A stretch of 64,000 nucleotides of DNA from Bacteroidales bacterium. GTDB lineage: Bacteria > Bacteroidota > Bacteroidia > Bacteroidales > FEN-979. Location: positions 62,001 to 126,000 of the forward strand of contig JAUXWT010000011.1 in the NCBI GenBank assembly GCA_030681475.1, in the 5' to 3' direction. The position numbers were made by a program, and so were the translations under genes. Within the stretch, counting starts at the first letter, position 1. Each line of letters opens with the position of its first letter. The notes beneath the pieces were generated by a model. It was not told the origin of the DNA. It ran no database searches and saw only the letters and a list, made by a program, of their open reading frames with translations. Shown in pieces: positions 5,501 through 19,745 of the stretch.

Positions 5501-5991
5501 TTAACATCCCTTTTATAGACTTTTTTCAGGTCGAATTTTTCCTGGTCACCAACCGGGAAATCGCATTTCATGAGTAAATCGTTGATCATTCCCTGGAGAG
5601 ACATCTCTCGCCCGTCGTCGGGAGAATAGATACGTGTGATGCCATATTCTTGCAGTTCGGCGATTTCCTGGGGTAAAATAACGCCCCCGCCTCCGCCAAA
5701 GATCCGGATATGACCGCAACCCCTTTCATGAAGCAGGTCGAACATGTATTTAAAATACTCATTGTGTCCGCCCTGGTAGGAGGTCAGGGCAATTGCCTGG
5801 ACATCTTCCTGGATGGCGCAATCGACCACCTCCTGAACCGAACGGTTGTGGCCGAGGTGGATCACTTCAGCCCCGCTGGCCTGCAATATCCGGCGCATGA
5901 TGTTGATCGATGCATCGTGACCGTCGAACAGAGATGTGGCGGTAACGATGCGAATATGATTATTGGGTTTATAGACTTCAGATGTATTCAT
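2575..5991 (-). CDS. icmF: Fused isobutyryl-CoA mutase (B12 domain, G3E GTPase, mutase)
   Basis: The single 1138-residue chain carries, in order, a cobalamin-binding domain (DGHDAS with the cobalt-ligating His near residue 25), a MeaI-type G3E GTPase chaperone domain (P-loop GTGGSGKSS near residues 203-211 and the switch ETSGIGQSD) and a methylmalonyl-CoA-mutase-type TIM barrel. The segment [16 protein letters not shown] is typical of IcmF rather than methylmalonyl-CoA mutase. The enzyme interconverts isobutyryl-CoA and n-butyryl-CoA with adenosylcobalamin, and the GTPase part loads and protects the cofactor. It sits between acyl-CoA dehydrogenase and butyrate kinase in one operon. The start MNTSEVYKP was preferred; the extra ten codons upstream come from an intergenic AT-rich repeat. 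Confidence 0.93.
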
Positions 5992-6026
5992 TTTCAAATC
6001 TTCAAATCTCCAGATTTTCAAATCGT

Positions 6027-7169
6027 TTATGCAGTCGATATCGCCCTGGAGATGATCATCAGCTGGATTTCACTGGTGCCTTCATAGATCTGGGTCAGTT
6101 TGGCTTCTCTCATCAGGCGCTCTACATGATATTCTTTCACATAGCCATACCCTCCGTGTATCTGAACAGCTTCGGTGGTGACGTACATGGCTGTTTCGGC
6201 GGCATCGTACTTGGCCATCGCGCTGGCGATGCCATATGGTTTTCCCTGATCTTTAAGCCAGGCCGCTTTCAGGCAAAAATAGCGGGCAGCCTCGATCCGG
6301 GTGTGCATTTTTGCCAGTTTGAAGGCGATATCCTGGTGGTTTATCAGCTCGGTGCCAAAGGCTTTCCGGTCCTTTGCATATTGGAGGGCGCGCTCAAAGG
6401 CTCCCTGTGCGATGCCGAGCGCCTGTGCGGCAATGCCGATGCGACCTCCCTCTAATGTTTTCATGGCAAACTTGAATCCGAACCCGTCTTCACCGATACG
6501 GTTTTCCTTAGGAACGATTACATCGGTGAACATCACCGAATGGGTATCGCTGCTTCGCATTCCCATTTTGTCTTCATGAGGTCCGAGGGTTATTCCCGGC
6601 GCATGGCGGTCAACCAGCAACACATTGATCCCTTTATGCCCTTTTTCAGGGTTGGTTTGCGCGATGAGCAGGTAAGTGGATGCGGAATCCGCACTGGTAA
6701 TCCAGTTTTTCACGCCATTTACGAGGTAGTGATCACCTTTGTCAATGGCCGTGGTGCGCTGAGAGGTGGCATCAGATCCGGCTTCGGGCTCGGAAAGGAG
6801 GAATGCCCCGATTTTTTCGCCCCGGGCCAGCGGTTTCAGCCACTTTTCTTTTTGTTCTTCCGTGGCAAAAGCTTCAATTCCATAGCAAACCAATGAATTA
6901 TTAACCGACATGATCACGGAGACGGAACTGTCGATCTTCGAAATCTCCTCCATAGCGAGGACGTAGGAAACAGTATCCATGCCTCCTCCATCGTACTTTG
7001 TATCGACCAGCATCCCCAGGAACCCAAGGTCTGCAAGCGCTTTAACATGTTGTGTCGGAAATTCAGCTTTGGCATCGCGTTCCAAAACGTCTTTGATCAG
7101 TTCGCGCTGGGCATAATCCCTGGCGGATTGCTGGATCATGATCTGTTCTTCTGTAAATTCGAAATTCAT
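6027..7169 (-). CDS. Short-chain acyl-CoA dehydrogenase
   Basis: This 380-residue FAD enzyme has the family length and motifs: [11 protein letters not shown] and NGVKNWITS for FAD and substrate binding, [14 protein letters not shown] and the catalytic-base segment YEGTSEIQ, where the Glu abstracts the alpha proton. It should oxidise a short-chain acyl-CoA such as butyryl- or isobutyryl-CoA to the enoyl-CoA and pass electrons to ETF. It is first in a minus-strand operon; the mutase starts 35 bases after its stop. The set (dehydrogenase, isobutyryl-CoA mutase, butyrate kinase homologue) points to butyrate or branched-chain amino-acid carbon flow. The exact chain length preference is not readable. 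Confidence 0.92.
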
Positions 7170-7349
7170 GGCGTTTGAGTGTAAGAGGTTAATTATTAAT
7201 AAACTGTATTATGGCAGATAGATATAATTTACATCGAAGTGATCTCTCAGAATGGAATCAAAATTACAAATTAAAATGACAAAAAAAAACCCGCCAAAGG
7301 ACGAGTTTAAATAATGTAACATTAGAAGGAAGAATTTACGATTGGACGA

Positions 7350-7461
7350 TTTTTGATTTACGAATAAATTGACGATTAAGCGATTGACGATTGTCAGCAT
7401 CAATCGTCAATCGTCAATCAATAAATTCAATCGAAACTCGCCAATCGTCAAATCGTAAATC
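7350..7461. repeat. Imperfect long inverted repeat built from ATCGTCA units
   Basis: The gap holds many copies of CAATCGTCA and its complement. At the core, a 13-base arm (7381-7393) and its exact reverse complement (7401-7413) flank a 7-base loop. An outer pair, TGATTTACGA near 7350 and TCGTAAATCA ending at 7461, extends the dyad. The repeat runs up to the stop codon of the next minus-strand frame. Confidence 0.7.
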
Positions 7462-7846
7462 AGTTGATGGTAATTCCCTGTTTTGTAAACACCGATTCAA
7501 CTACGAAATAGAATTTCTTGCTGCTGAAATCTTCCGACTTGTAGCTCCAGGGAGCAACCTGTACCATTCCCTGACCGGCAGTGAACGCTGATAGTTCAGC
7601 AGATCCGATCACACATTCACTTGCGTTACCGCCTAATCGTTTCAAAATCATGTGGTTGTCGTAATCAGTAACAATTACATAAATTGAATCGGCGTTGGTT
7701 ACTGCTGAGCCCAGCGAAATGGTCGCACCGGCTGATTTTGTGATTGTTGCAGGCAGACTGTTAAATCCTGAATAATTGGGGATCGTCCTGTTGTCATTAT
7801 AACTGATGGCAGGCACAGTGGCAGATCCCGAAACATTCCAATTCAA
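7460..7846 (-). pseudogene. C-terminal remnant of an unrecognised protein
   Basis: The open frame gives 129 codons beginning MNWNVSGSATVP. The same frame continues upstream for about ten sensible codons (NYTDPLSFSTL) and then meets a TAA, so the visible start is probably not the original one. There is no signal peptide although the composition (Ser, Thr, Ala and Gly rich beta strands) looks extracytoplasmic. I do not recognise the family. It most likely represents the 3' part of a larger gene whose 5' part has been lost, but a short intact gene with an alternative start cannot be excluded. Confidence 0.45.
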
Positions 7847-7959
7847 TGTGCTGAAGGATAATGGATCGGTGTAGTTTTAATAAAGACATTCATGATTTAA
7901 AAGTTATAAGTTTAGGACACAAACATAAATTAAATTAGACCTATTCCAAATATTAAAGC

Positions 7960-7990
7960 AAAAAAAAAGGATGCAGATTGCCCGCATCCT
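7960..7990 (-). terminator. Rho-independent terminator
   Basis: Read on the minus strand, AGGATGC pairs with GCATCCT across a 9-base loop and is followed by a run of eight or more T. It lies just downstream of the lipoprotein gene that ends at 8011. Confidence 0.8.
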
Positions 7991-8010
7991 GATTTTCAGA
8001 TAATTAGAGC

Positions 8011-8526
8011 TTATAGTTGCCGCTCGTAGGTTATCTTAATATCCCCAACAGGAACATGTTCGATGACAATAATTTGTTCCTTGCTGATCTCAAGGATCTC
8101 GATCACGAACTTCATTTTATTTTCAATATTTTTGGCAACGATTCGGCTTCCCTTGCCCTTCATCTTCCAGGTTGCGTTCAGCGGTTTTCCGGGGAAGTTT
8201 TTAACGGCGGTCTTATTTGGAAAAATTTCCATGGTGGCCCGCATTTCATTCTGTATCAGCCTGTCGAGGGCAGCATCTTTTCGGGATACTGCACCTTCGC
8301 CGTCCTGTCTGCCTTCCTTTACCTGCTGCCGGCCCGAATTATCCGACATGGAAGCTGCTGCCTGCAACGCCGATGAGTCAACTACTTTTTCGACCTTGAC
8401 CGGTCTCCATATTCCTATGATGATTTTTTCGTTGGGATGCGGCGTCATTCCGCAGGAGGTCATGAAAATGATGGTTATTACAATGGTACCGAGTGTAAAA
8501 ATTCTGTTTCTGATCATTACTGTCAA
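8011..8526 (-). CDS. Lipocalin-like lipoprotein
   Basis: The 171-residue protein starts with a signal peptide ending in a lipobox (IIFMTSCG), so it should be lipidated and anchored in the envelope. After the cysteine comes IIGIWRPVKVE, which resembles the opening strand of lipocalin-like domains (G-W-x-x), followed by a variable Gln/Gly/Ala stretch (residues about 53-85) and further beta strands including NATWKMKGKGSRI and a terminal ITYERQL. Function is unknown. A -7 promoter element lies 37 bases upstream and a strong terminator follows, so it is monocistronic. Confidence 0.6.
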   Translation of the reverse strand: MTVMIRNRIFTLGTIVITIIFMTSCGMTPHPNEKIIIGIWRPVKVEKVVDSSALQAAASMSDNSGRQQVKEGRQDGEGAVSRKDAALDRLIQNEMRATMEIFPNKTAVKNFPGKPLNATWKMKGKGSRIVAKNIENKMKFVIEILEISKEQIIVIEHVPVGDIKITYERQL

Positions 8527-8562
8527 TTTAGTTTATACGGGATATGAATTAATTTCAAGCAG

Positions 8563-8570
8563 CAAAGTTA
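8563..8570 (-). promoter_or_regulatory. Bacteroidota -7 promoter element
   Basis: On the minus strand this reads TAACTTTG, matching the TAnnTTTG consensus of the Bacteroidota primary sigma factor, about 37 bases before the lipoprotein start codon. No clear -33 TTTG was found. Confidence 0.45.
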
Positions 8571-8668
8571 GGGTTAATTTTTTTTATGATGTATTACCTT
8601 TTGATGGTTTTTCCGATTAAACAATTAAAAGGATTATGCAAAAATATCATTCTGTCGCAGAGGAGTGA

Positions 8669-9040
8669 TTTCCCCATGATTTTATGTTCCGGTTGACAAA
8701 AGCAGAATGGGAAGGACTTATCACAATTTGTGATAAGTTCCCGGAAAAAATCAGGCATTATCCAACTCTTCCACTTGCATTCACCGAACAGGGAGTGGCA
8801 ATGCTTTCCAGTATTTTACGGTCGAAACGGGCAATTATTGTAAACATAGCCATCATGCGGGCCTTTATCAACCTCCGCCAATTGATCGATGCAAATAAAA
8901 ATCTGATAAGTCGCCTTGACTCTCTTGAGAAAAAATACGATAAGAAATTCCTGCTGGTTTTCCAGGCCATCAAAGAGATGATCAGGGAGGAAAACGAACC
9001 CAGAGAAAAGATCGGATACAAAATTCCGGGATCAGTGTAA
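8669..9040 (+). pseudogene. 5'-truncated ORF6N-domain protein
   Basis: After a TGA stop the frame reads FPHDFMFRLTKAEWEG and continues through AFTEQGVAMLSSIL and a C-terminal coiled coil ending EKIGYKIPGSV. This matches the middle and end of the ORF6N (phage-type DNA-binding) protein encoded intact at 24332-24874, where the equivalent block is FPEDFMFELT. The N-terminal half, containing the RDLAELYGV DNA-binding segment, is missing. The gene is therefore a remnant. Its last nine bases overlap the convergent thioredoxin-fold gene. Confidence 0.75.
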
Positions 9041-9565
9041 ACTTTTTGGAACCTGGTAGGTGTCCGGATCTATCGCCTTCACATTCCACATTTTCAGGAA
9101 GGTGACAACTTTGGTGGTATCATAGCCCTTGGCGACGCAATGCTCAAGGATGCCCGAATCCTGGATGTGCAGTAGCTTGCCTTGCCCGTCGAGGATCAGG
9201 AAAACAGGGTACCCGAACCGGTTGGGGTATCCGTAATCGCGGAAAAGCTGGTAATCTCTCTTTTTCTTATCCTGAGGGACATTGGCCAGCACATAAACGT
9301 AATCGGCCTTCAAAAGCGAGTCAATGGGCTGCGCTTCACCGGCCATCTTGTGAAATCTGATACACCACGGACACCAGTTTCCTCCCATCTGAACAAGCAC
9401 GTGCTTGTTCTCTTTTTCGGCAAGTGTAGTGGCCTTCTTCAAGTCGGCCCTCACATCCTGGTTTTCATCATAGGGTTTGACCGGGGACTGCCCATAAGCA
9501 GTGACAATTGACAAGTGACAAATGACAAATGACAGAAGGGTTATTGATTTAATGAGGTGTTTCAT
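9032..9565 (-). CDS. Secreted thioredoxin-fold protein (WCPWC)
   Basis: This 177-residue protein has a signal peptide (MKHLIKS to TAYGQ) and a thioredoxin fold with the redox motif WCPWC (Cys65 and Cys68) after VLVQMGGN. A cis-proline segment (FGYPVFLIL) follows. It belongs to the Thioredoxin_7-like group, whose members act as periplasmic disulfide reductases or isomerases. The hydrophobic core of the signal peptide is encoded by an intergenic-type tandem repeat (9501-9534). The start at MKHLIKS was chosen over an upstream Met because it gives a normal signal peptide. It lies 38 bases downstream of the DUF5916 gene and is probably cotranscribed. Confidence 0.8.
   Translation of the reverse strand: MKHLIKSITLLSFVICHLSIVTAYGQSPVKPYDENQDVRADLKKATTLAEKENKHVLVQMGGNWCPWCIRFHKMAGEAQPIDSLLKADYVYVLANVPQDKKKRDYQLFRDYGYPNRFGYPVFLILDGQGKLLHIQDSGILEHCVAKGYDTTKVVTFLKMWNVKAIDPDTYQVPKSLH
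9501..9534. repeat. TGACAAA-type tandem repeat inside signal-peptide coding region
   Basis: About five copies of a 7-base unit (GTGACAA, TTGACAA, GTGACAA, ATGACAA, ATGACA). Read on the minus strand in frame it encodes SFVICHLSIVT of the thioredoxin-fold signal peptide. Confidence 0.8.
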
Positions 9566-9603
9566 TTTGTGGATTTTCGGGCGACTAAGATAGGTAAAAC
9601 CTG

Positions 9604-12132
9604 TCAAATGTTGCTGCTCTTCTGCTTTTTTGAAAAAGCTTTTCTGATGTTAAGGTAATCGAGGTAATATAGTATCCTGACAGAAAAACTGTTGGACTGG
9701 GGTGAGTTGAGCGTGTTGCCGATATCGGTAAAATAATTGTAAACAAGCATGCTGCCGGTGGTATTTATGGCATTCTTCCACACAACGCTCATTTCACTTC
9801 CCGGGGCAAAATACCATACGAACTGCAGATCAATGGTAAATGCATTGAAGTTGATATCCCGGCCTCCGATAAAATCCGAAGAGTTTAGCGATCCGTTCTT
9901 CTCCAACGTGTAGAATGAAAGGTACTTTGCCTGCGACCAATAGTGCCGCGCCCGCAAGGTGAGCGAAGCCTTCGTGTTAAAAATATACCTTATGTTCAGG
10001 ATGTTGTTGATCGTGGTAATGTCACGACGTCCAAAAAAAATGGTCGGATCCATCAGTGAATCATAACTTGTGCGGACCCATCCGTAATTGTTCAACTCCT
10101 TTTCAAACTGCATGTCAAGTGTTGCCGAAAAACGATCACTGAATCTTACACGCGGTGTGAAACCAATAAAATAAATGAAATTGTTGTTTTCCGGACTATT
10201 CATAAACCCGAAATTGTGATGATACCGGATAGGTTTCCGGTCGTTGGAGGCGAAACGCCACTCCCCGGAAAAGTTAAACGGCATTTTATAAACGCGGCCC
10301 CATATCCTGGGTTCATAGAAGTCGTAAAAACCGAGTGGTTGGATTGCAGCATAAAGCACGTTGATCCAGTATTTTACAAACACGATTGAGTTATTCAGGC
10401 TGAAATCGAGCGTTTTAAAGTCGTAGGGCTGGTGCAGCGTAATATAGCGTGCCACCAGGTCGGTTTGTGTATTAACGATCTTTCCTTTGGGGTCATAATC
10501 ATACCATGAAAGCCTTAGCCGGTTGGTGGCCTCATTGTTGTAGGAGATGAATCCCATGTCGTTCGGGTCGTATGTGGCGCCGGTCTCCTGCCTGAGCAAC
10601 TGATATTGGAATTTACCGCCCGGCTTTGAAATTGAAATGGTGTACTGGTGCCCAAAATCGGGATTGATTCCATTCAGGTATTTCTGGCTCAGGTTAAACC
10701 GGCCGAAAACCTGGAAATTGCCTTTCCGGTTCTTAATACTGGTTTCCGCTCCCGAAACATTGGCGGAATAACCGTCGTCCGGAGTCCAGTAATTTGTGTT
10801 GATCAGGGTTACATAAGAGTTGTTCTTCAGGTTTTGGTCGAAGACCAGTACATTGTAATTCGTAAATGGTTGTGTCCTGATCCTGCGCGATTCTCCGGTG
10901 ATGGTATCCTGCAGGTTGGCCCACGTATTGATGGTCATGCCGTTGAACAACCCGATACCCAGTCCCCTCAAGTTCCTTCCTGAGATTTTCGTGGCATTGA
11001 TGATCCTGGTCTGGTCAGGATTTTTGGACACCTTCTCGTTTTGCCTGAGGCTGTCATACACTGCGTTACTGTATTTGGGAAGGCTTCCCACCCTTCGGCT
11101 GTAAAAGATCTCGCATTTGTCGAAAAGCTCCGTGGCTTCGGTAAAGAACTGCCGTTTTTCATCATAGCGGATCTCGAAAGGGGAGAGGTTGAGCACCTGG
11201 TCATCAGATTGTACCTGCCCGAAATCGGGAATCAGCATCATGTCAAGGGTGTAACTCTCATTGATCCCATAGCGGAGATCAAGGCCCCTGCGGAAAAAAT
11301 ATGACCAGTTTTTACTCTCCGGGCCCTTTTCAAGATATCCGGAAATGTATGGCGAGAATGAGAGCCTTAGCGGGGGTTTTATTGCACCAATACCGGTGAG
11401 TGTGCCATAATACCGGAATATATCCTGCGATTTGTTATCCACCCACGACCAGGTGGAATATTCGTGGAAACGGTGAATGTTCCGCCACATATTGATCCCC
11501 CAAATCTGTTCTCCGACTTTCGGGAACCTTAAGGCTGAATAGGGGATCTTCAGCTCCGTGATCCATGCCGAATCGTTGATGACCGTGGCGCTTTCCCATA
11601 CGGCATCCCAGGTAACATCCTGTCCGATGGCAGTGTATTTGCAATCGTTTTGCAAGTTTGCCGGACTCACCTTGAACTCATACATGTTGAGTCCGTCGTT
11701 ATAAGGAAGGATGTCGAAAGAGATATAATCGGTGTTCAGTGCCTCAATCTGGTCACGACGGCCAAGCTCCTTGCAAATGCTGTCGGGGTGAGGGTCGAAC
11801 ATGACCGCAAGAATATAGAGCGCCATGTCATCGTACGCGAAACGGATCTCGGTACGCAAAGCCGGCAGGGTGCCATTCCTTGGACCGTATTCAATAAAGT
11901 CGTCTGCAACCGGTGCGGTTCTCCAGACCAGATCATTGGAGTTGCCGTCGATCTTTGGGGCGGTCGTTGCACGTATGGCCACGATGTTTTTCCTTGACAG
12001 ATCTGCCGAATCAGGCAGGATTCCGGTACTTCCGGCAATGGACAATAAAGGGAACAACACCAATAACAAGTGAAATAACGTAACCGTAAAAAGTATCGGA
12101 CAACGACAGGCTGGTCTGCAATTCCTCATCAT
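9604..12132 (-). CDS. DUF5916 outer-membrane protein with CBM9-like N-domain
   Basis: The protein (about 842 residues) has a hydrophobic signal segment (residues about 14-34), then a carbohydrate-binding CBM9/DOMON-like domain (KIDGNSNDLVW, AYDDMALYILAVMFD, ISFDILPY, the WDAVWES/ITELKIPY block) at about 45-200. The rest is a long series of amphipathic strands ending in aromatic residues, as expected for the DUF5916 beta-barrel. Family members are often described as hydrolase-associated outer-membrane proteins, but no enzymatic function is established. The start could be nine codons earlier. A downstream thioredoxin-fold gene is close enough to share its transcript. Confidence 0.85.
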   Translation of the reverse strand: MMRNCRPACRCPILFTVTLFHLLLVLFPLLSIAGSTGILPDSADLSRKNIVAIRATTAPKIDGNSNDLVWRTAPVADDFIEYGPRNGTLPALRTEIRFAYDDMALYILAVMFDPHPDSICKELGRRDQIEALNTDYISFDILPYNDGLNMYEFKVSPANLQNDCKYTAIGQDVTWDAVWESATVINDSAWITELKIPYSALRFPKVGEQIWGINMWRNIHRFHEYSTWSWVDNKSQDIFRYYGTLTGIGAIKPPLRLSFSPYISGYLEKGPESKNWSYFFRRGLDLRYGINESYTLDMMLIPDFGQVQSDDQVLNLSPFEIRYDEKRQFFTEATELFDKCEIFYSRRVGSLPKYSNAVYDSLRQNEKVSKNPDQTRIINATKISGRNLRGLGIGLFNGMTINTWANLQDTITGESRRIRTQPFTNYNVLVFDQNLKNNSYVTLINTNYWTPDDGYSANVSGAETSIKNRKGNFQVFGRFNLSQKYLNGINPDFGHQYTISISKPGGKFQYQLLRQETGATYDPNDMGFISYNNEATNRLRLSWYDYDPKGKIVNTQTDLVARYITLHQPYDFKTLDFSLNNSIVFVKYWINVLYAAIQPLGFYDFYEPRIWGRVYKMPFNFSGEWRFASNDRKPIRYHHNFGFMNSPENNNFIYFIGFTPRVRFSDRFSATLDMQFEKELNNYGWVRTSYDSLMDPTIFFGRRDITTINNILNIRYIFNTKASLTLRARHYWSQAKYLSFYTLEKNGSLNSSDFIGGRDINFNAFTIDLQFVWYFAPGSEMSVVWKNAINTTGSMLVYNYFTDIGNTLNSPQSNSFSVRILYYLDYLNIRKAFSKKQKSSNI

Positions 12133-12329
12133 TACCAAAAATAAAACAAAGGTTGACAAGGAAAAAATAATTTTGACTAACCTGATAAATTATCCGTCCT
12201 AAGGAACATTATTCCCGGTAAAGCCGAAGTTGTTTCGATGATGAAAAATAATAAGCGCAAAGGACACAATATTTTTGTTGTCGAAATATCTGGAAAGAGT
12301 ATTTTTACGAAGTAAATACCTTTATTAAA

Positions 12330-15300
12330 ATGGAACTGTCATCCCGTTCAAATGTAAATCTGGATTTTGAATCATCGCCGGGCTCGAAAGGAAAATTCCT
12401 GGTTCTTGATACTGAAACTACAGGACTGCTGCCAAAAGAGCAATTGGAAGATACCGACCCGGAAACTCATCCAAGAGTGATCCAGGTTGCCTGGTTACTC
12501 TTCGATGCAGACGGTAAACTGATCGAATCACATAACCGTTATATATTGCAGGAACAACCTGTTCCGCCTTCTTCAACGCAGATCCATGGGATCGAGGATG
12601 CTACCCTGCTACAAAAAGGAGAAAAACCCACTGTTGTATGGAATGATTTTTTGACTGCCCTTGAGCAATGTGATTATCTGATTGCACACAACATCGATTT
12701 TGATTTGCCGGTCATTGAATCGGAACTGAGACGGTTACACATTCATAACCCTTTTGCCGGTAAGAGAAAGTTCTGTACCATGAAACTTGGAAGAATCTTC
12801 TGCAAAATCCCGGCGGATGATGGAAACGGATACAGGTTCCCTGCCCTTGACGAATTATATAAAATATGCTTTTTTGGCCGTCTTTCCGACCTGCAGATAT
12901 CAGGGTTGCATGATGCGTACGTTGACGCGGCAGTTACCTCAAAGGTATTTTTTCAGCTATTTACTTCGCTCCCGATCAATCTGGAAGCTGCCACCGAAGA
13001 GCCATTCAAATTGCCCTTTGTCGGGACCAGCGACAGCGTGGGCAAAGGTAAATTCTTCCTTCATATCATACTTCCGACATTCCTGACTATTTTACTTTTT
13101 TTCCTGACCATTTTCCTGATTATCATTCCAAGGTTCAAGGAAAATATCATGTTGGGAAAACGCCAGATGATTGAAGAACTTACACGATCGGCTGCAAGCA
13201 TCCTGGACAAATACGAAACTGATGAACGAAACGGGCTGATGACACGTGAAGAGGCCCAGAATACAGCTATTTCAAGAATTCAATACCTGAGATACGGCAC
13301 TGAAAACAAGGATTATTTCTGGATCACCGACCTGAAACCCAACATGATCATGCATCCTTACCGCAGCGACCTGAACGGGAAAAGTCTGCAGGACTTCACC
13401 GACCCTCATGGCAAAAAACTCTTTGTTGAGATGGTGAGTGTTTGTAATAAGAACGGCCATGGATATGTAGAATACATGTGGCAATGGAAGGATGATCCGG
13501 CACACATTGTTCCCAAACTATCCTATGTCGCCGCATTTAAGCCATGGGGCTGGATAATAGGTACAGGTATCTATGTGGAGGACGTCAAAAAGGAGATCGT
13601 ATCGTTGACGCAGCGACTGCTGGTCATATCATTGGGTATATCGCTTATCATCGCCTTGTTGCTTACCTATATCACCTATCACAGCATCAGGATCGAGCGA
13701 AAAAGGAAAAGCGCTGAATCTCAGTTGCGCATTTCACGCGAAAAATATAAAACGCTTGTTGATGCAACCACCGAGGGGCTGATCATGATGCTTGACCATA
13801 AAATGATTTTTTCGAACAATAAGGCGCTTGAACTTACAGGATTCGACGAAAATGAGTTAAACAGCCACCCTTTTTCCAAACTGATCAGTGACAAAAACAA
13901 CCCGGAAACCTTAAGGATCTTCAAGCACAGAAACCTGCCTGACGGACAATATGAGTTAATCCTGTCATTAAAAAACGGAAGCACACTCGACACAATAGTA
14001 ACGATCAGCTCCATGTTTTTTTCCGGCAAGAAAGGCAAACTGATCACTATAAAGGATGCCTCAGTCCACCAAACATCGTATGGGACCATCGAAGATATCC
14101 TGCAGATTCTGGAACTTTCAGGGCTGGGGTTTATCAGGTTTTTACTTGATTCAAAGGGTAAGATCATTTATTCAAGCAAGGCGATGGTAAGCATACTCGG
14201 CTTTGCCGATGCAAAGGAACTTTCGAACTACAGCATACTCGATTTTTTCTTTGATTCTGCCGAGAAGAAAAAATACCGGACCCGGCTTTTGGCCGATGGA
14301 AGAATCAATAATGTTACTATACGTCTTAAGCGCAGAGACGGTGGTGTTCGTGTCGTCTCAGCATCCATGGTCATAAAAAAGGATGAGTCACAGCAGTTGT
14401 TGTGCGATGGTATAATCGAAGATATTACGAAAAGGACCACTGAAATTCAGGAAAAAAACGAGTTTATTACTCAGTTGCAGGTACATTCATTGCTTTTGCA
14501 TAATTCTGTTGATTCCTTCATTGTTCCGTTCAATGAAGTCCAGATGGACATATCTGCTGCCGGCATCATTAAAATCATGAAAAATAACCACACCGACGTG
14601 GTCCTGGTCTCAAACAGGGATGGCGCAAAGGTTGGGATTGTCACGGCCGGCGACATTGTTGAAAGGATTTTACTTTCAGGCTCGGATCCCAAACGCCCGG
14701 TTTATGAAATCATGAGCGCACCACTGGTTTTTGTGAATACGAGCGATACTTTGAGCAAGGCGATAACAACCATGCAGACTGTCGGGATATCGCATCTTGT
14801 GGCCAGACACGCGACAGGATCAATTGCAGGAATGATCCATAAGCGTGATATTTCTCATTCCATGTTTAACTCCTTTTCATTTATCGAAAATGAAATTGAC
14901 AGCGCTCAGTCTGTTGGAGAGCTTTCAATCCTGTATCAACGGTTTTTAAGCTATTTGTCATTAATGATCGGGCAAACCGTTAATCCGGTCATTATTGGCA
15001 AAAGCATCGCTTCCATTTCGGGTCGTATTACCGGAAAGCTTATCGCCATGGCCATGGCGGAGATCGGAGAACCCCCGGTTGAGTTTGCATTTATAGCCAT
15101 GGGCAGCGAGGGGAGGATGGAGCAAACGCTGGTCACCGACCAGGACAATGCCATCGTATATCAGGATGTTCCCGATATTGAGGCAGACCAGGTTCAGGCC
15201 TGGTTCAACAATCTGGGGGAAATTGTATGCGATCAGCTTAACGCGGTTGGATTCAGATATTGCAAGGGCAGGATCATGGCCAAAAATCCGCTTTGGTGCA

Positions 15301-15911
15301 AGCCGCTGCAAACCTGGAAAAATTATTTTTCCCAATGGATATCAACCCCCGAACCCAAAAATCTCATGGATGTTTCTATTTTTTTCGACCTGCGTCCGGT
15401 TTTTGGCAGCGCTCACATTATTAATGAACTGCGCAGCCATATCGATATAGTCTCTGATGGCAGGTCATCCTTCTTTTACAACCTGGCGGAGAGTGTGCTG
15501 TCTTTTAAACCATCTATGGGGATAACCGGAGCTATTCATACGGAAAAAAGAGACAACAAGGAGTTGTTTGATCTGAAAAACGCGGTTACCCCTTATATCA
15601 TGTTTGCACGCATCTATGCAATATTCCATAAAATTCCTGCCGCCAATACCATTGGGCGGATCCAGGCTTTGTATGCGCTGCAGGTGATCCCGCTTGCAAC
15701 CTGCCGTGATGTCTCGTTCGGATATGATTTTCTGATGATGTTGAGATATAAACACCAGGTAGCCCGGTTGGAATCATCGGGCGAGATCAATAATTTAATT
15801 GACCTTAATGAGTTGCCGGAGGTTGAGGAAACCGTGCTGAAAAAGACCTTATCACTGGTGTCAGATTTTCAGAACAGGCTTAATATTGATTTTAAGCGAT
15901 CTATTTTATGA
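12330..15911 (+). CDS. DEDDh exonuclease-Cache-PAS-PAS-CBS-DUF294 nucleotidyltransferase fusion
   Basis: The 1193-residue chain joins, in order: a DnaQ/RNase T-like 3'-5' exonuclease (residues about 20-215) with all DEDDh residues visible (Asp27 and Glu29 in DTETTG, Asp125 in HNIDFD, His194 and Asp199 in HDAYVD); TM1 (about 241-266); a periplasmic single-Cache domain (about 270-422, with DYFWITD and the KPWGWIIGTGIY end); TM2 (about 429-450); PAS1 (471-577) and PAS2 (587-702); a CBS pair (about 731-850); a DUF294 nucleotidyltransferase (GSEGRMEQ at 925-932 and DQD at 937-939); and DUF294_C to the end. Separate CBS-DUF294 and exonuclease genes are known beside acetate-type symporters, and here the symporter follows. 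It is probably a membrane sensor that couples an external carboxylate signal to nucleotidyl transfer and removal. Confidence 0.9.
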   Translation: MELSSRSNVNLDFESSPGSKGKFLVLDTETTGLLPKEQLEDTDPETHPRVIQVAWLLFDADGKLIESHNRYILQEQPVPPSSTQIHGIEDATLLQKGEKPTVVWNDFLTALEQCDYLIAHNIDFDLPVIESELRRLHIHNPFAGKRKFCTMKLGRIFCKIPADDGNGYRFPALDELYKICFFGRLSDLQISGLHDAYVDAAVTSKVFFQLFTSLPINLEAATEEPFKLPFVGTSDSVGKGKFFLHIILPTFLTILLFFLTIFLIIIPRFKENIMLGKRQMIEELTRSAASILDKYETDERNGLMTREEAQNTAISRIQYLRYGTENKDYFWITDLKPNMIMHPYRSDLNGKSLQDFTDPHGKKLFVEMVSVCNKNGHGYVEYMWQWKDDPAHIVPKLSYVAAFKPWGWIIGTGIYVEDVKKEIVSLTQRLLVISLGISLIIALLLTYITYHSIRIERKRKSAESQLRISREKYKTLVDATTEGLIMMLDHKMIFSNNKALELTGFDENELNSHPFSKLISDKNNPETLRIFKHRNLPDGQYELILSLKNGSTLDTIVTISSMFFSGKKGKLITIKDASVHQTSYGTIEDILQILELSGLGFIRFLLDSKGKIIYSSKAMVSILGFADAKELSNYSILDFFFDSAEKKKYRTRLLADGRINNVTIRLKRRDGGVRVVSASMVIKKDESQQLLCDGIIEDITKRTTEIQEKNEFITQLQVHSLLLHNSVDSFIVPFNEVQMDISAAGIIKIMKNNHTDVVLVSNRDGAKVGIVTAGDIVERILLSGSDPKRPVYEIMSAPLVFVNTSDTLSKAITTMQTVGISHLVARHATGSIAGMIHKRDISHSMFNSFSFIENEIDSAQSVGELSILYQRFLSYLSLMIGQTVNPVIIGKSIASISGRITGKLIAMAMAEIGEPPVEFAFIAMGSEGRMEQTLVTDQDNAIVYQDVPDIEADQVQAWFNNLGEIVCDQLNAVGFRYCKGRIMAKNPLWCKPLQTWKNYFSQWISTPEPKNLMDVSIFFDLRPVFGSAHIINELRSHIDIVSDGRSSFFYNLAESVLSFKPSMGITGAIHTEKRDNKELFDLKNAVTPYIMFARIYAIFHKIPAANTIGRIQALYALQVIPLATCRDVSFGYDFLMMLRYKHQVARLESSGEINNLIDLNELPEVEETVLKKTLSLVSDFQNRLNIDFKRSIL

Positions 15912-16109
15912 CCTTTCACGGCTGATCTGTATTTTTTTTCACTTTTATTTGTTAGGTTGATACTTATTAATAACTTTATGCGCTGATAATCAGCACACAA
16001 TAAAATTTTTATTTTATTGAAAAACAGATTGTTGTGAATATTTTAACAGGTTTATTCATCCGAAATTAAGACGATTTTTTACAAATAAATCATAAACAAA
16101 GGAGGAAAC
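15912..16109 (+). promoter_or_regulatory. Intergenic region with strong ribosome binding site
   Basis: The 198-base AT-rich gap holds no gene. Just before the DUF485 start codon lies AAGGAGG (16099-16105) with a 4-base spacer, an unusually strong Shine-Dalgarno site for Bacteroidota. No confident -7/-33 pair was found. Confidence 0.5.
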
Positions 16110-16382
16110 ATGATCCACAAACCAGCAACGACTATCGGAAACGACAATGCTGCACCAAAAAAAGCGAAGTTAGGCGTGATCCTATTTATTGCATACACAT
16201 TGGTTTATTCAGGTTTTGTTCTGATCGGTTTAACCAAGCCCGAATTAATGGGTTTAGAGGTTATTGGCGGGCAAAACATTGCCATCATCTATGGATTCGG
16301 ACTGATCATACTTGCAATAGTTATGGGATTTATCTACAACTATTTCTGCACAAGGATGGAAAACAAAATGAACAAAAACTAA
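16110..16382 (+). CDS. DUF485 family membrane protein (symporter partner)
   Basis: This 90-residue protein has two membrane helices (about 26-45 and 60-82) with a short loop, and the order KLGVILFIAYTLVYSGFVL...GGQNIAIIYGFGLIILAIVMGFIYN fits DUF485. Such proteins are encoded directly before ActP-type sodium/acetate symporters and are thought to be an accessory subunit. The Shine-Dalgarno site decides the start. The symporter start codon lies 18 bases after the stop, so the two are translated from one mRNA. Confidence 0.85.
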   Translation: MIHKPATTIGNDNAAPKKAKLGVILFIAYTLVYSGFVLIGLTKPELMGLEVIGGQNIAIIYGFGLIILAIVMGFIYNYFCTRMENKMNKN

Positions 16383-16400
16383 TACTAACACCAACTGATC

Positions 16401-18323
16401 ATGATCTACGAAGTTTCAAATTTAGCTATAATAATTTTTCTGTTTATTGTTGGTTTGGTGCTGGGATTATCCTTTTATTTCGCCAGAAAAACCAAGTCTG
16501 CCGCAAGCTATTATGCAGCAGGCGGTAACATTCACTGGGCTGTTAACGGTATAGCATTTGCGGGCGATTACCTGTCGGCAGCCTCTTTCCTGGGAATATG
16601 CGGCATGATCGCCTATTCCGGTTACGACGGATTCCTTTATTCGATCGGATATCTTGCCGGTTGGGTGGTGGCCTTATTCCTTGTTGCAGAACCTTTAAAG
16701 AAACTTGGCAAATATACCTTTGCTGATGCACTGGATTCCCGGTTCAATGCCAAGTCAATAAAACTTGCAGCATCATTCAGCACGCTGGTTGTCTCGATAT
16801 TTTACCTTATACCCCAGATGGTCGGGGCCGGCGACCTTGTTGTTCCCCTTCTCGGGCTGCCACACTGGATAGGTGTTTTAATCGTCGGCGCCATCGTGAT
16901 ATTTATCGTTGCCACTGCCGGGATGACTTCTACCACCTATGTTCAGTTTATTAAAGGCGCTCTGCTGGTTATTTTTTCTACCGTACTTACCATATATATA
17001 TTAAACAACGGATTAAAATTAACGCCGGATGAAAACTATCATAAGTACGCAAAGTTAGAGGCGGTTGTTGCTAACGATACAATTGTCAGCATACCTGATC
17101 CGGACTATCTTTTAAAGGCAACGAAAGTTGTCGGCAAGCTGGTCTTTGTTCAACTGGAGAAAAACGGTTCCATCTGTTGGTATAAGTTAAATAAGGACGG
17201 AGAAAGCGCCGTGCTTGATGAAATGCTATTCACCACCGACCACCCTGACGGCAGTAAAACGTATAACGGCGCCCCAAAATCAGAAAAGAAATTCTATCAG
17301 GTAGGACACCTGAGTAAAATAATTGTTGATGGTAAAGAGGTTGACCAAACAGGTCCGGTTGGTCCGTTTGAATTTATAAAAACAATCGAATCAAGTGAAA
17401 TCGTACGCTTTACGAAAAAAGCATTCAGTAATGGGGATGATCGTGTAACAGTATGGTACCAGAATGTCACCAAAGGCACGGATGTGATGAAGCCCGGACT
17501 CCTGTACAAACTATCGAAGGCAGCGGGTGCAACATTCTGGGATAAAATGAACTTCTTATCTTTAATGCTCGCGCTGTTTTTGGGAACATCTGCATTACCA
17601 CATATCTTGATCAGATATTATACCGTTCCAAGTCAGCGGGCCGCCAGAAAATCAACCATTGTTGCGATCGCAGCCATCGGATTTTTTTATGTGCTGACCC
17701 TGTATATGGGGCTTGGCGCCATGATCAATGGTGTTTTGGATGTCGAAAGCAGCAACATGTCGGGACCACTGCTGGCAAAATCCTTTGGAGTTGGCATATT
17801 CTCTATTATTTCAGCAATTGCGTTTGCAACTGTGCTTGGAACGGTCAGTGGACTTATTGTAGCATCATCAGGGGCAATTGCCCATGACTTCATTGACATG
17901 TACCTCAAGGTTGAAATGACGGACAAGGAGAAGGTTAAAGCCGGAAAGATCGCAGCCTTCAGCGTAGGTGTATTTGCAATTATTCTGGGTATTTTATTTA
18001 AAGGCATGAATGTGTCGTTCCTTGTCGGACTCGCATTCGCAGTGGCAGCATCCGCCAATCTGCCGGCAATTTTATTCCTCCTGTTCTGGAAGAAAACAAC
18101 GGCAAAAGGGATTTCCTGGTCAATTGTCGTCGGGATTTTTTCTTCCATCGGCATTATACTGTTTTCACCTACCATGTATGATAAATATGGGTTAGTTCCC
18201 AAAGATGCGCCCATTCCACTGGATAATCCGGGAATTATTTCCATTCCATTGGCAATCATTACCCTGGTCGTAATTTCATTGCTGACACAAAAAGATAATT
18301 CAACAAAAGATTTTAGTAAGTAA
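16401..18323 (+). CDS. Sodium:solute symporter, ActP (acetate)-like, with large insertion
   Basis: The 640-residue protein has the SSS/SLC5 fold: AASYYAAGG, AGDYLSAASFLG, SIGYLAGWVVALFLVAEPLKKLGKYTFADALDSRF and GTSALPHILIRYYTVPS match ActP-type cation/acetate symporters, and 13 or so membrane helices can be counted. An extra soluble block of about 175 residues (203-378) is inserted before the PHILIRYY helix and is hydrophilic, beta-rich and probably periplasmic. The likely substrate is acetate or another short carboxylate, judged by family and by DUF485. It stands between the sensor-nucleotidyltransferase gene and an outer-membrane porin, giving a complete uptake route. Confidence 0.88.
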   Translation: MIYEVSNLAIIIFLFIVGLVLGLSFYFARKTKSAASYYAAGGNIHWAVNGIAFAGDYLSAASFLGICGMIAYSGYDGFLYSIGYLAGWVVALFLVAEPLKKLGKYTFADALDSRFNAKSIKLAASFSTLVVSIFYLIPQMVGAGDLVVPLLGLPHWIGVLIVGAIVIFIVATAGMTSTTYVQFIKGALLVIFSTVLTIYILNNGLKLTPDENYHKYAKLEAVVANDTIVSIPDPDYLLKATKVVGKLVFVQLEKNGSICWYKLNKDGESAVLDEMLFTTDHPDGSKTYNGAPKSEKKFYQVGHLSKIIVDGKEVDQTGPVGPFEFIKTIESSEIVRFTKKAFSNGDDRVTVWYQNVTKGTDVMKPGLLYKLSKAAGATFWDKMNFLSLMLALFLGTSALPHILIRYYTVPSQRAARKSTIVAIAAIGFFYVLTLYMGLGAMINGVLDVESSNMSGPLLAKSFGVGIFSIISAIAFATVLGTVSGLIVASSGAIAHDFIDMYLKVEMTDKEKVKAGKIAAFSVGVFAIILGILFKGMNVSFLVGLAFAVAASANLPAILFLLFWKKTTAKGISWSIVVGIFSSIGIILFSPTMYDKYGLVPKDAPIPLDNPGIISIPLAIITLVVISLLTQKDNSTKDFSK

Positions 18324-18383
18324 ACGTCGTTTTCTTCATGGCGTTGAATGCTAATCGTGTAACATTTAATTAAACTGGAAAAA

Positions 18384-19745
18384 ATGAAAAGAAATATCAC
18401 AATTCTGTTCGCTGTTCTTATACCTGTATTGGGTTTTACGCAAGAAAAGGACACTAAGTTCAGTGTTAATTTCTCTGGATTTATTAAAAATGACTTCTTT
18501 TGGGATTCACGTCAAACAGTTTCGATCCGGGAAGGTCATTTCCTTTTGTACCCCATGAAAATTGACCGGGACGCCAATGGCAAGGATTTAAACGCAAAAT
18601 CAAATTTTAATTTTTTGTCCATACAAACAAGGTTGACGATGAACGTAACCGGTCCCGATGTGTTCAAGGCAAAAGTATCCGGTGTTGTTGAGGCCGATTT
18701 TTTTGGCAATGAAAATGCTGCATTTGTAGATGTAAACGGTTTCAGGCTTCGTCATGGATTTGTAAAACTCAACTGGCCTAAAACAGAGCTTTTATTCGGA
18801 CAATACTGGCATCCGATGTTTAACCCCGAATGTTTTCCGGGAGTGGTCTCATTTAATACAGGCGCCCCTTTTCAGGCTTTTGCCAGAAATCCCCAAATGC
18901 GTTTAACTCAAAAACTGGGTGATTTCAAGTTGATGTTCGCAGCCTGTTCGCAAAGGGATTTCGTTAGTCCCGGCGGATCTTCCGTTTCACTGAGAAACAG
19001 TTCTATCCCCGATCTGGATCTGCAGTTCTCTTATGGATTTAAAAATGATTCAACTAAAAAGGAGTTTCTTATCGGACTTGGCGGCGGATATAAAATCGTT
19101 GCACCACGCATATACAGTGATGTTACCACAACAACAGTAGTTTCACCTTCGTACGTAGTTTATGACACACTGAATAATCCCCATGTCATTCCGGCTGTTA
19201 CCAAAACAACAACAGCTAAATATAAAGTTGACGAACAACTCGGAGGGTTTTATTCCATCTTTTTCATGAAGTATAAATGCAAAACCATTACCTATAAACT
19301 TTATGCTGCCTATGGTCAGAATATTTTTGACATTACCATGTTGGGTGGATATGCCGTCAGCAAAATTAATGATCCTGCGATATGGCAAAAGGATTATACC
19401 CCTTTCAATACATTTTCAGCCTGGACAGAACTGAATACAAATGGAAAAAAGATCCAGGCTGGCCTGTTTGCCGGATATACACAGAATATGGGAACATCCG
19501 CTGATATCCTTGATTATTCGACAACGAACCGGGGCGCTGATATCAAATGCGCATATCGTGTATCACCCCGCGTGATTTTTATTTCCGGAAAATTTCAGAT
19601 CATGACTGAACTGGAGTTGACCAGCGCATATTATGCCGACAAGGATGCCACCGGAATGTACTACAGAGATATTAAAGGCGTAATTACCCAATCTTCCGCG
19701 GCAAGCAATTTACGCATACTTTGCGCCATCCAATATCATTTCTGA
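18384..19745 (+). CDS. Outer-membrane porin-like beta-barrel
   Basis: The 453-residue protein has a signal peptide (MKRNITIL to GFTQ) and then alternating strands typical of a 16-stranded porin: FSGFIKNDFFWDSRQ, IQTRLTMNVTGPD, FRLRHGFVKLNWPKTELLFGQYWHPMF and a C-terminal ILCAIQYHF ending in Phe, as outer-membrane barrels do. It resembles DcaP-like/porin_O-type channels. It starts 60 bases after the symporter, so it is probably in the same operon and provides the outer-membrane pore for the symporter's substrate. Confidence 0.8.
   Translation: MKRNITILFAVLIPVLGFTQEKDTKFSVNFSGFIKNDFFWDSRQTVSIREGHFLLYPMKIDRDANGKDLNAKSNFNFLSIQTRLTMNVTGPDVFKAKVSGVVEADFFGNENAAFVDVNGFRLRHGFVKLNWPKTELLFGQYWHPMFNPECFPGVVSFNTGAPFQAFARNPQMRLTQKLGDFKLMFAACSQRDFVSPGGSSVSLRNSSIPDLDLQFSYGFKNDSTKKEFLIGLGGGYKIVAPRIYSDVTTTTVVSPSYVVYDTLNNPHVIPAVTKTTTAKYKVDEQLGGFYSIFFMKYKCKTITYKLYAAYGQNIFDITMLGGYAVSKINDPAIWQKDYTPFNTFSAWTELNTNGKKIQAGLFAGYTQNMGTSADILDYSTTNRGADIKCAYRVSPRVIFISGKFQIMTELELTSAYYADKDATGMYYRDIKGVITQSSAASNLRILCAIQYHF

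Follow-up and report, generated by a model that had tools for sequence, protein, structure and literature searches.

In GlnD, a bifunctional uridylyltransferase/uridylyl-removing enzyme, nucleotidyl addition and removal are carried out by one chain under sensor control, and the substrates of GlnD and GlnE are proteins. On tRNA, the CCA-adding enzyme and RNase T provide a precedent for nucleotide addition and trimming. The usual substrates of DEDDh exonucleases are nucleic-acid 3' ends; these enzymes are not known to act on protein-linked nucleotides. Predicted nucleotidyltransferases of the DUF294 family occur with CBS domains in many genomes beside a gene for a DnaQ-like exonuclease, and we take the PA3232-PA3233 pair of Pseudomonas aeruginosa to be an example; its cluster, PA3232-PA3235, also includes an acetate permease. 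For a Pseudomonas fluorescens relative of this type, the published report annotates a cAMP-binding domain and describes a negligible effect of deletion on acetate growth (PMC5715377). In the open-licence literature covered we found no demonstrated activity or function for any DUF294 protein, and that literature gave nothing combining DUF294 with an exonuclease. Matches to DUF294 are nevertheless widespread, being present (weak matches included) in 125 of 395 Bacteroidota genomes, 121 of 150 genomes in the phylum of locus L031, and 51 of 99 in the phylum of locus L027.

Results

A sensor with two predicted nucleotidyl enzymes in one chain

We analyzed a stretch of 64,000 nucleotides from a Bacteroidales genome (hereafter the window), in which a gene for a fused receptor precedes a set of putative uptake genes (Table 1).

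Table 1. Features of the fused receptor gene and of the region downstream, in window positions.
Feature	Position	Strand	Evidence
Fused receptor, 1193 aa: exonuclease-TM-Cache-TM-PAS-PAS-CBS pair-DUF294-DUF294_C	12330..15911	+	ORF, Pfam, 59% full-length homologue in G010
DEDDh 3'-5' exonuclease domain (predicted), aa 24-207	12399..12950	+	RNase_T, E 1.9e-15
Membrane helix 1, aa 240-273	13047..13148	+	Kyte-Doolittle hydrophobic stretch
sCache_2 sensor, aa 275-425, expected periplasmic	13152..13604	+	Pfam and pocket residues
Membrane helix 2, aa 423-455	13596..13694	+	Kyte-Doolittle hydrophobic stretch
PAS domain 1 (PAS_9), aa 485-576	13782..14057	+	Pfam
PAS domain 2 (PAS), aa 602-689	14133..14396	+	Pfam
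CBS pair, about aa 724-845	14499..14864	+	Pfam CBS 791-843 and profile match to solved CBS proteins
DUF294 nucleotidyltransferase core (predicted), aa 874-1010	14949..15359	+	Pfam, E 3.1e-45
DUF294_C helical domain, aa 1047-1187	15468..15890	+	Pfam
AT-rich gap of 198 bases between receptor and DUF485 genes, with stem-loop and T-rich stretch; possible separate transcription unit	15912..16109	+	Such matches at chance level in region
DUF485 small membrane protein, 90 aa	16110..16382	+	Pfam
SSF symporter, ActP/MctC-like, 640 aa	16401..18323	+	Pfam SSF; below curated ActP and MctC cut-offs
Porin-like protein, 453 aa	18384..19745	+	Without Pfam/NCBIfam family

The initial annotation had placed an exonuclease, a Cache sensor, two PAS domains, a CBS pair and DUF294 in one polypeptide with two membrane helices. 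Pfam and profile matches agree with hydropathy on this layout, with Pfam itself giving one CBS motif and the pair following from the profile match to solved CBS pairs. The gene is a single intact reading frame, and because the draft assembly comprises 111 contigs, we considered whether an assembly or sequencing error had joined two genes. This is refuted by a genome of the same genus (G010, loci L002/L049), in which the whole chain, from residue 1 to 1193, recurs with 59% identity, identical domain order and no stop. The fused receptor is thus, on sequence grounds, a real chain, and a joining error has a negligible probability. Across genomes, the Cache-bearing fusion appears in the window and in G010. 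Fusion of an exonuclease to DUF294 as such is not unique, since sensor-less fusions are common in one pseudomonadotal order (25 of 150 genomes). The L133-type protein is one chain with an N-terminal exonuclease and a C-terminal DUF294 (exonuclease-CBS-CBS-DUF294-DUF294_C), but it is 705 residues long, has no Cache or PAS match, and belongs to different exonuclease and nucleotidyltransferase branches.

The Cache domain of the fused receptor has all seven residues of the solved C2/C3-carboxylate pocket of PscD: Y329, W331, H342, F365, Y382, W384 and K396, positioned by hand on an alignment, correspond to the propionate contacts Y90, W92, H103, F126, Y143, W145 and K156. This supports the proposed carboxylate-type sensor and suggests that the protein probably senses acetate-like acids. 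The pocket is shared with PscD/McpP-type chemoreceptors, whereas the domain is here attached to nucleotidyl enzymes instead of a chemotaxis signalling domain.

The catalytic residues predicted for both enzymes are intact, as had been claimed. At the C-terminus, DUF294 (153.9 bits) and DUF294_C (106.2 bits) are accompanied by G925-S926, D937, D939 and D1020, the GS, DxD and third-carboxylate residues of a GlnD/GlnE-like group, which are conserved in 132 to 135 of 135 DUF294 sequences. One study assigns DUF294_C to the same clan as the C-terminal domains of GlnD and GlnE (PMC3710099). A sequence-profile search gave no solved relative of the nucleotidyltransferase, the best match being a designed helical bundle (E 0.035). 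The fused receptor would resemble GlnD in its mode of action if the model below holds; it differs in being a membrane receptor and in having a DEDDh exonuclease as its second enzyme, with no HD or ACT match (Pfam, E 0.001). At the N-terminus, RNase_T scores 58.2 bits against a cut-off of 24, and all five DEDDh positions are present (D27, E29, D125, H194 and D199). Among 68 aligned exonuclease domains, the D, E, H and D columns are invariant, while 49 have D as the third carboxylate and 19 have E. The chain therefore probably combines a carboxylate sensor, a nucleotide-attaching enzyme and an enzyme that may remove nucleotides. We also considered an anti-phage nucleotide system: PADLOC gave no match over the nucleotidyltransferase, for CBASS or other known systems of this kind, and matched only the exonuclease part, with generic DEDDh and PDC-S48 models.

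In the exonuclease tree, which is midpoint-rooted with some long branches and an unsure deep order, the fused domain clusters with stand-alone Bacteroidota exonucleases (98/94 for a starred 4-row set and 100/99 for a starred 11-row set). The 11-row set includes two class I partners (defined below), those of L072 and L075; the remaining 47 of 49 adjacent class I partners belong to a group outside which the fused domain falls. The tree does not support an origin of the fused exonuclease in this main partner group, and it indicates that the exonuclease partners of DUF294 derive from more than one lineage. In L072 and L075 the exonuclease gene lies upstream of the DUF294 gene, matching the domain order of the fusion, and the fused receptor may descend from a pair of this type.

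The kind of phosphoesterase follows the DUF294 class

We divided DUF294 proteins into those without (class I, n=92) and those with a Cache sensor (class II, n=43) and found that the phosphoesterase encoded beside them depends on the class. A DnaQ-like exonuclease accompanies 66 of the 92 class I genes (58 adjacent on the same strand, 7 two to three genes away, 1 fused), and 26 have no such partner; metallophosphoesterases were found beside none of the 92. Among class II genes, a metallophosphoesterase is adjacent in 20 (19 on the same strand), an exonuclease is fused in 2, and 21 have neither nearby. For genes more than two away (n=1106), the background was one exonuclease and no metallophosphoesterase of these families. 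The metallophosphoesterase profiles were built from the first-found neighbours, so for them this count is not independent, and the held-out set is the independent test. In that set, with frozen profiles, a metallophosphoesterase lies within three genes of 28 of 38 class II genes (for 23 it is the adjacent gene, on the same strand; 27 of 37 without L188, apparently the same contig as L015), 10 have no partner, exonucleases number 0, and the background is 0 of 227. These 38 come from 40 loci, of which L208 gave no DUF294 gene and L210, at the edge of its contig, belongs to class I; the held-out genomes may in part represent families that had already been sampled. Excluded before counting were second copies (L002, L018, L019 and L021, of L049, L054, L052 and L053), loci with only a Cache match (L025, L027, L029, L030, L032, L033), lone exonuclease loci (L051, L055) and short loci (L001, L037-L048). 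The near copies L034/L035 and L003/L004 and the fragment L036 were kept, and the window entered as 24 kb around the gene.

The pairing is far above background, and what is new here is its dependence on class: exonuclease without Cache, metallophosphoesterase with Cache. Two unrelated folds occupy one slot beside DUF294. The statement in the initial annotation that other bacteria have separate exonuclease and CBS-DUF294 genes holds for class I, but no class II gene has a separate exonuclease gene beside it (0 of 43 and 0 of 38 held-out); there the neighbour is a metallophosphoesterase in about half or more. The fused chain therefore has an unrelated phosphoesterase where class II otherwise has a metallophosphoesterase or nothing. 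It resembles class I in bringing these two enzyme families together, whereas class I has no Cache match, separate genes and mostly exonucleases of another lineage. Closer are the class II proteins of L053, L076 and L174 (Cache-PAS-CBS-DUF294), which share the receptor chain from about residue 238 to 1193 at 32-45% identity over long matches, with the same pocket and a similar symporter neighbourhood; their phosphoesterase is a separate calcineurin-like protein, without an exonuclease. The search that gave these matches scored two candidate places in each genome at E 1e-40, and it bears on the fused chain and not on separate exonuclease genes. The seven-residue pocket is complete in 41 of the 43 class II proteins.

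The metallophosphoesterase is dedicated to class II genes. Of 395 Bacteroidota genomes, 7 have a match at E 1e-20 or better, and all 7 carry a class II gene. Within the window's family, 3 of 43 genomes match at 1e-10 or better, and all 3 carry a class II gene that lacks the exonuclease. In the nucleotidyltransferase tree, the nearest well-supported relatives outside the genus (L028 and L105) have no phosphoesterase partner nearby, and support is weak for a link to rows paired with a metallophosphoesterase. That the exonuclease replaced a metallophosphoesterase is therefore no more than a possibility.

Two side observations concern individual metallophosphoesterases. One of a different kind, unmatched by the family-wide search, is encoded on the opposite strand in G042, the genome of L050, and the metallophosphoesterase of L013 matches PDC-S10 in PADLOC (E 3.9e-10).

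Linkage to symporter genes

The initial annotation placed the receptor with an acetate-type uptake operon. The DUF485, symporter and porin-like genes do follow on the same strand, but the 198-base gap leaves co-transcription with the receptor unsupported. The symporter scores under the curated cut-offs for ActP (408.7 versus 750 bits) and MctC (456.8 versus 670 bits), and its substrate assignment is therefore unproven. Homologues of the porin-like protein occur in L049, about 5 kb from the second fused gene (43%), and in the class II locus L050, which comes from another genus (42%). The expected linkage to symporters is frequent, with an SSF gene within four genes of 29 of 43 class II, 41 of 92 class I and 20 of 38 held-out class II genes. 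The symporter type nevertheless differs between the two fused chains: in G010 the nearest symporter, an SSF protein 26-30% identical to that of the window, is accompanied by a DUF4212 gene and is read towards the receptor gene from the opposite strand.

Discussion

We propose, with slightly more confidence than doubt, that the fused protein receives short carboxylates at the membrane and responds through two opposed nucleotidyl enzymes in the cytosol, which tune the adjacent symporter. The Cache domain would bind a carboxylate of the acetate/propionate class, DUF294 would transfer a nucleotide to an acceptor or make a nucleotide product, and the exonuclease would hydrolyse that phosphodiester again. 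The signal would pass through the second membrane helix and the PAS domains to set the balance of addition and removal, the CBS pair would act as an internal gauge of nucleotides, and this balance would tune carboxylate uptake. Antagonism on one substrate, the direction of the signal, the function of the CBS domains and the control of uptake are our inferences; the class-wise pairing of phosphoesterases favours such a carboxylate-gated switch. By analogy, we would favour a protein as acceptor, given the kinship with GlnD and GlnE, over a small messenger, and a messenger over an RNA end. The two fused chains lie near different symporter types, which argues against a covalent target specific to one symporter. 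Also counting against the proposal are the many DUF294 genes with no phosphoesterase partner nearby, the nucleic-acid substrates for which DEDDh enzymes are known, and the negligible effect on acetate growth of deleting the P. fluorescens relative, which lacks this sensor. It is possible, though we hold this only tentatively, that external acetate-type carboxylates prompt DUF294 to make a diffusible nucleotide messenger, and that the fused exonuclease, or elsewhere the product of the exonuclease or metallophosphoesterase gene, would destroy it.

The two enzymes may also not be antagonists: the nucleotidyltransferase might modify and control the phosphoesterase, or the phosphoesterase might be a separate output, such as RNA trimming, that the receptor also switches. 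Tight coupling, with many paired genes overlapping by 1 or 4 bases and others fused, would be expected for an enzyme and its regulator too, and in L124, L128 and L136 the exonuclease ends a longer protein two genes away with a membrane-like N-terminus (by eye). However, a metallophosphoesterase in the place of an unrelated DEDDh exonuclease is easier to reconcile with a common chemistry than with conservation of a modification site, and we judge the non-antagonist reading unlikely. We give still less credence to a switch at RNA 3' ends, at which DUF294 would add nucleotides and the exonuclease would trim them. The exonuclease profile does match the structures of DnaQ, PolC, RNase T and Cas2-DEDDh, in keeping with the usual DEDDh substrates, but DUF294_C groups with domains of enzymes that modify proteins, and Pfam gives no RNA-binding domain in the fused receptor besides the exonuclease.

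Returning to the carboxylate-gated receptor, the pairing rule suggests which enzyme undoes the work of DUF294, and the pocket indicates the class of ligand. If the messenger version were true, it would describe a multi-phylum pathway coupling the sensing of short-chain acids to uptake, independent of the type of symporter nearby. Since sensor, writer and probable remover lie in one protein, the substrate can be sought directly, which makes the fused chain a useful lead to the function of the widespread and unexplained DUF294 family.

The fused receptor and its gene neighbourhood

The initial annotation described a single chain joining an exonuclease, a Cache-PAS-CBS sensor and a DUF294 nucleotidyltransferase, and we find it encoded in one uninterrupted frame. 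Its domains (RNase_T, sCache_2, PAS_9, PAS, CBS, DUF294 and DUF294_C, in that order) all exceed the curated Pfam cut-offs; Pfam detects one CBS motif, and the profile of this region (residues ~724-845) matches solved CBS pairs. The Cache domain is flanked by two hydrophobic stretches (residues 240-273 and 423-455), so both enzyme domains are expected to be cytosolic, on the same side of the membrane. The same chain, without a stop, is present in another genome of the window's genus (G010, locus L049; 59% identity over residues 1-1193), which argues against a sequence error joining two genes. DUF485, symporter and porin genes follow as proposed, spaced by 18 and 60 bases, but a single operon that includes the receptor is uncertain, because an AT-rich gap of 198 bases with a stem-loop and a T-rich stretch precedes DUF485. 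The window symporter has ~150 additional residues (205-355) compared with 514-519-residue relatives (loci L076-L079 and L092); this long form is present at many loci of Cache-bearing DUF294 proteins (class II, as opposed to the sensor-less class I).

Positions of genes in the window and at collected loci
Locus	Feature	Position	Strand
Window	Divergent neighbour gene, matches to DUF5916 and CBM9_1	9604-12159	
Window	Fused receptor, 1193 aa	12330-15911	+
Window	DUF485, downstream of receptor gene	16110-16382	+
Window	SSF symporter, 640 aa, downstream of DUF485	16401-18323	+
Window	Porin-like protein, downstream of symporter	18384-19745	+
L012 (Spirochaetes contig)	Region with two class II receptors, face to face	5978-14867	
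L049	CitMHS-type transporter gene	9857-11314	
L066	AP_endonuc_2	9142-9981	
L068	AP_endonuc_2	5358-6239	
L124	Exonuclease, C-terminal in longer protein	9486-11597	
L128	Exonuclease, C-terminal in longer protein	4639-6762	
L136	Exonuclease, C-terminal in longer protein	5101-6513	

The kind of phosphoesterase partner follows the DUF294 class

DUF294 loci were collected from Bacteroidota, from the phyla of loci L031 and L027 and from a genome-contig scan. Strong matches were taken, usually a single one per genome, and neighbours were typed by profiles. The 131 loci hold 135 DUF294 genes (92 class I, 43 class II). Class I proteins, mostly of 600-700 residues, have a DnaQ-like exonuclease adjoining on the same strand in 58 of 92 cases, two to three genes away in seven and fused in one; none was seen for 26, and no metallophosphoesterase lies near any of the 92. 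In class II, a calcineurin-like metallophosphoesterase adjoins 20 of 43 genes (19 on the same strand), the exonuclease is fused in two (the window and L049), neither partner was seen for 21, and a separate exonuclease gene is near none of the 43. Class and partner kind are associated (Fisher's test, p = 8e-18, a value to be read with caution since the loci are related by descent). Of the 1106 genes in these loci that lie beyond the second neighbour, one is an exonuclease and none belongs to these metallophosphoesterase families. DUF294 and partner genes lie close together, and many overlap by 1 or 4 bases. The anticipated synteny thus holds for class I, with an exonuclease alongside and an SSF symporter often near, but the separate exonuclease does not extend to Cache-bearing relatives; an SSF gene lies within four genes of 29/43 class II and 41/92 class I genes, so symporter co-occurrence stands.

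The metallophosphoesterases fall into two groups: 14 proteins encoded mostly upstream and 6 encoded downstream. The motifs DxH, GD, GNH and HxH are invariant within each group, and no significant similarity was seen when one example of each was compared. In 40 further loci from the window's order, with profiles frozen beforehand, the metallophosphoesterase adjoins 23 of 38 class II genes on the same strand and two on the other, and is two or three genes away in three; ten have no partner, no exonuclease is near any of the 38, SSF is within four genes of 20, and the background is 0/227. The metallophosphoesterase is tied genome-wide to class II receptors: it is matched in 7/395 Bacteroidota genomes, all seven with class II genes. 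Within the window's family it is matched in 3/43 genomes, all three having an exonuclease-free class II gene, and is unmatched in the two fused-gene genomes; in G042, a fourth class II genome of the family, the opposite strand encodes a metallophosphoesterase of another kind.

Other arrangements were seen. AP_endonuc_2 (xylose-isomerase-like TIM barrel) genes lie on the opposite strand near partnerless class II genes at L066 and L068, in one family, possibly by mere shared descent. Near other DUF294 genes, the exonuclease forms the C-terminal part of proteins of 470-707 residues with N-termini that look membrane-like by eye (L124, L128, L136); at L124 and L128 a gene that, by eye, resembles a response regulator intervenes. 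The L012 contig also carries two DUF485 genes and a pair of symporter genes, one of the pair truncated where the locus ends.

The catalytic residues are conserved in homologues. All 68 exonuclease domains keep D, E, H and the last D, with D as third carboxylate in 49 and E in 19, the window having D. In 135 DUF294 domains the GS motif keeps G in 134 and S in 133, DxD its first D in 132 and second in 133, and the third D is kept in all. The exonuclease profile matches solved PolC, DnaQ, RNase T and Cas2-DEDDh; for the nucleotidyltransferase profile, no natural protein of known structure matched at E values up to 5.

A conserved carboxylate pocket and a proposed mechanism

The closest solved relatives of the window Cache domain are 5g4y/5g4z and 4k08, and we take 5g4y to be PscD. 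PMC5062169 lists glycolate, acetate, propionate and pyruvate as PscD ligands and Tyr90, Trp92, His103, Phe126, Tyr143, Trp145 and Lys156 as propionate contacts, with numbering that fits the 5g4y chain. Positioned by hand on the alignment to the solved relative, all seven are present in the window (Y329, W331, H342, F365, Y382, W384, K396) and in 41/43 class II proteins; of the exceptions, L014 is cut by a contig end and starts inside the Cache domain, and L149 differs at a single position. The window ligand is therefore likely to be a short carboxylate.

PA3232 and PA3233 are presumably the exonuclease and the CBS-DUF294 protein. PA3232-PA3235, with an acetate permease, are reported to rise ~16-fold on propionate (PMC9765439); DUF294_C is grouped with the GlnD/GlnE C-terminal domains (PMC3710099); and the CrbS/R acetate regulon includes a cAMP-binding/CBS/nucleotidyltransferase protein, predicted to nucleotidylate protein, whose deletion had negligible effect on acetate (PMC5715377). 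In the public annotation of a Hymenobacter plasmid, a single match covers both a DUF294 protein and a 3'-5' exonuclease. Searches of open-licence papers yielded no account of the fused receptor or of the pairing with metallophosphoesterases.

That one nucleotidyltransferase family is accompanied by a different, unrelated phosphoesterase fold in each class suggests that the phosphoesterase may undo the transferase product, and the pocket and symporter linkage suggest that the receptor may control short-acid uptake. The symporters near the two fused chains differ (ActP/MctC-like with DUF485 versus SSF with DUF4212), which disfavours a modification site found in a single transporter type; the target might instead be a general protein or a diffusible product. 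At L049 the CitMHS-type gene separates the symporter genes from the porin gene. We give the model of a carboxylate receptor with opposed nucleotidyl enzymes a shade better than an even chance, a rating held down slightly because no partner gene lies near the receptor's closest relatives outside its genus, L028 and L105.

Origin and rarity of the fusion

In the nucleotidyltransferase tree the window falls within a 50-row set (support 99) of all 43 class II and seven class I proteins; beyond the genus, its closest relatives with good support are L028 and L105, and support for a wider connection to metallophosphoesterase-paired rows is weak (85-87). In the exonuclease tree the fused domains group first with a solitary exonuclease from the same family, then with other stand-alone Bacteroidota exonucleases, one of them encoded by the genome of the window itself, and with the partner exonucleases of class I loci L072 and L075; the other 47 adjoining class I partners fall elsewhere. 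Both trees suggest that a Cache-class receptor, which may or may not have had an earlier metallophosphoesterase, gained a Bacteroidota-type exonuclease at its N-terminus. L133 represents a separate, sensor-less fusion (exonuclease-CBS-CBS-DUF294), matched almost end to end in 25/150 genomes of its order, the query's included, and free of inner stops in 22; exonuclease and DUF294 have thus probably been joined on more than one occasion.

Within the genomes sampled, the fused sensor is rare and restricted to one genus. It occurs in 2/43 genomes of the window's family. The window protein is matched at E 1e-40 or better in 64 of 393 genomes drawn from the order, reaching into residues 1-220 only in its own genome; the second fused-gene genome is absent among the matches and was evidently not drawn. 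The fusion is real, intact and rare, a variant of a widespread, uncharacterised enzyme pair, and the more useful results are the pairing rule and the pocket common to nearly all of the Cache class examined.
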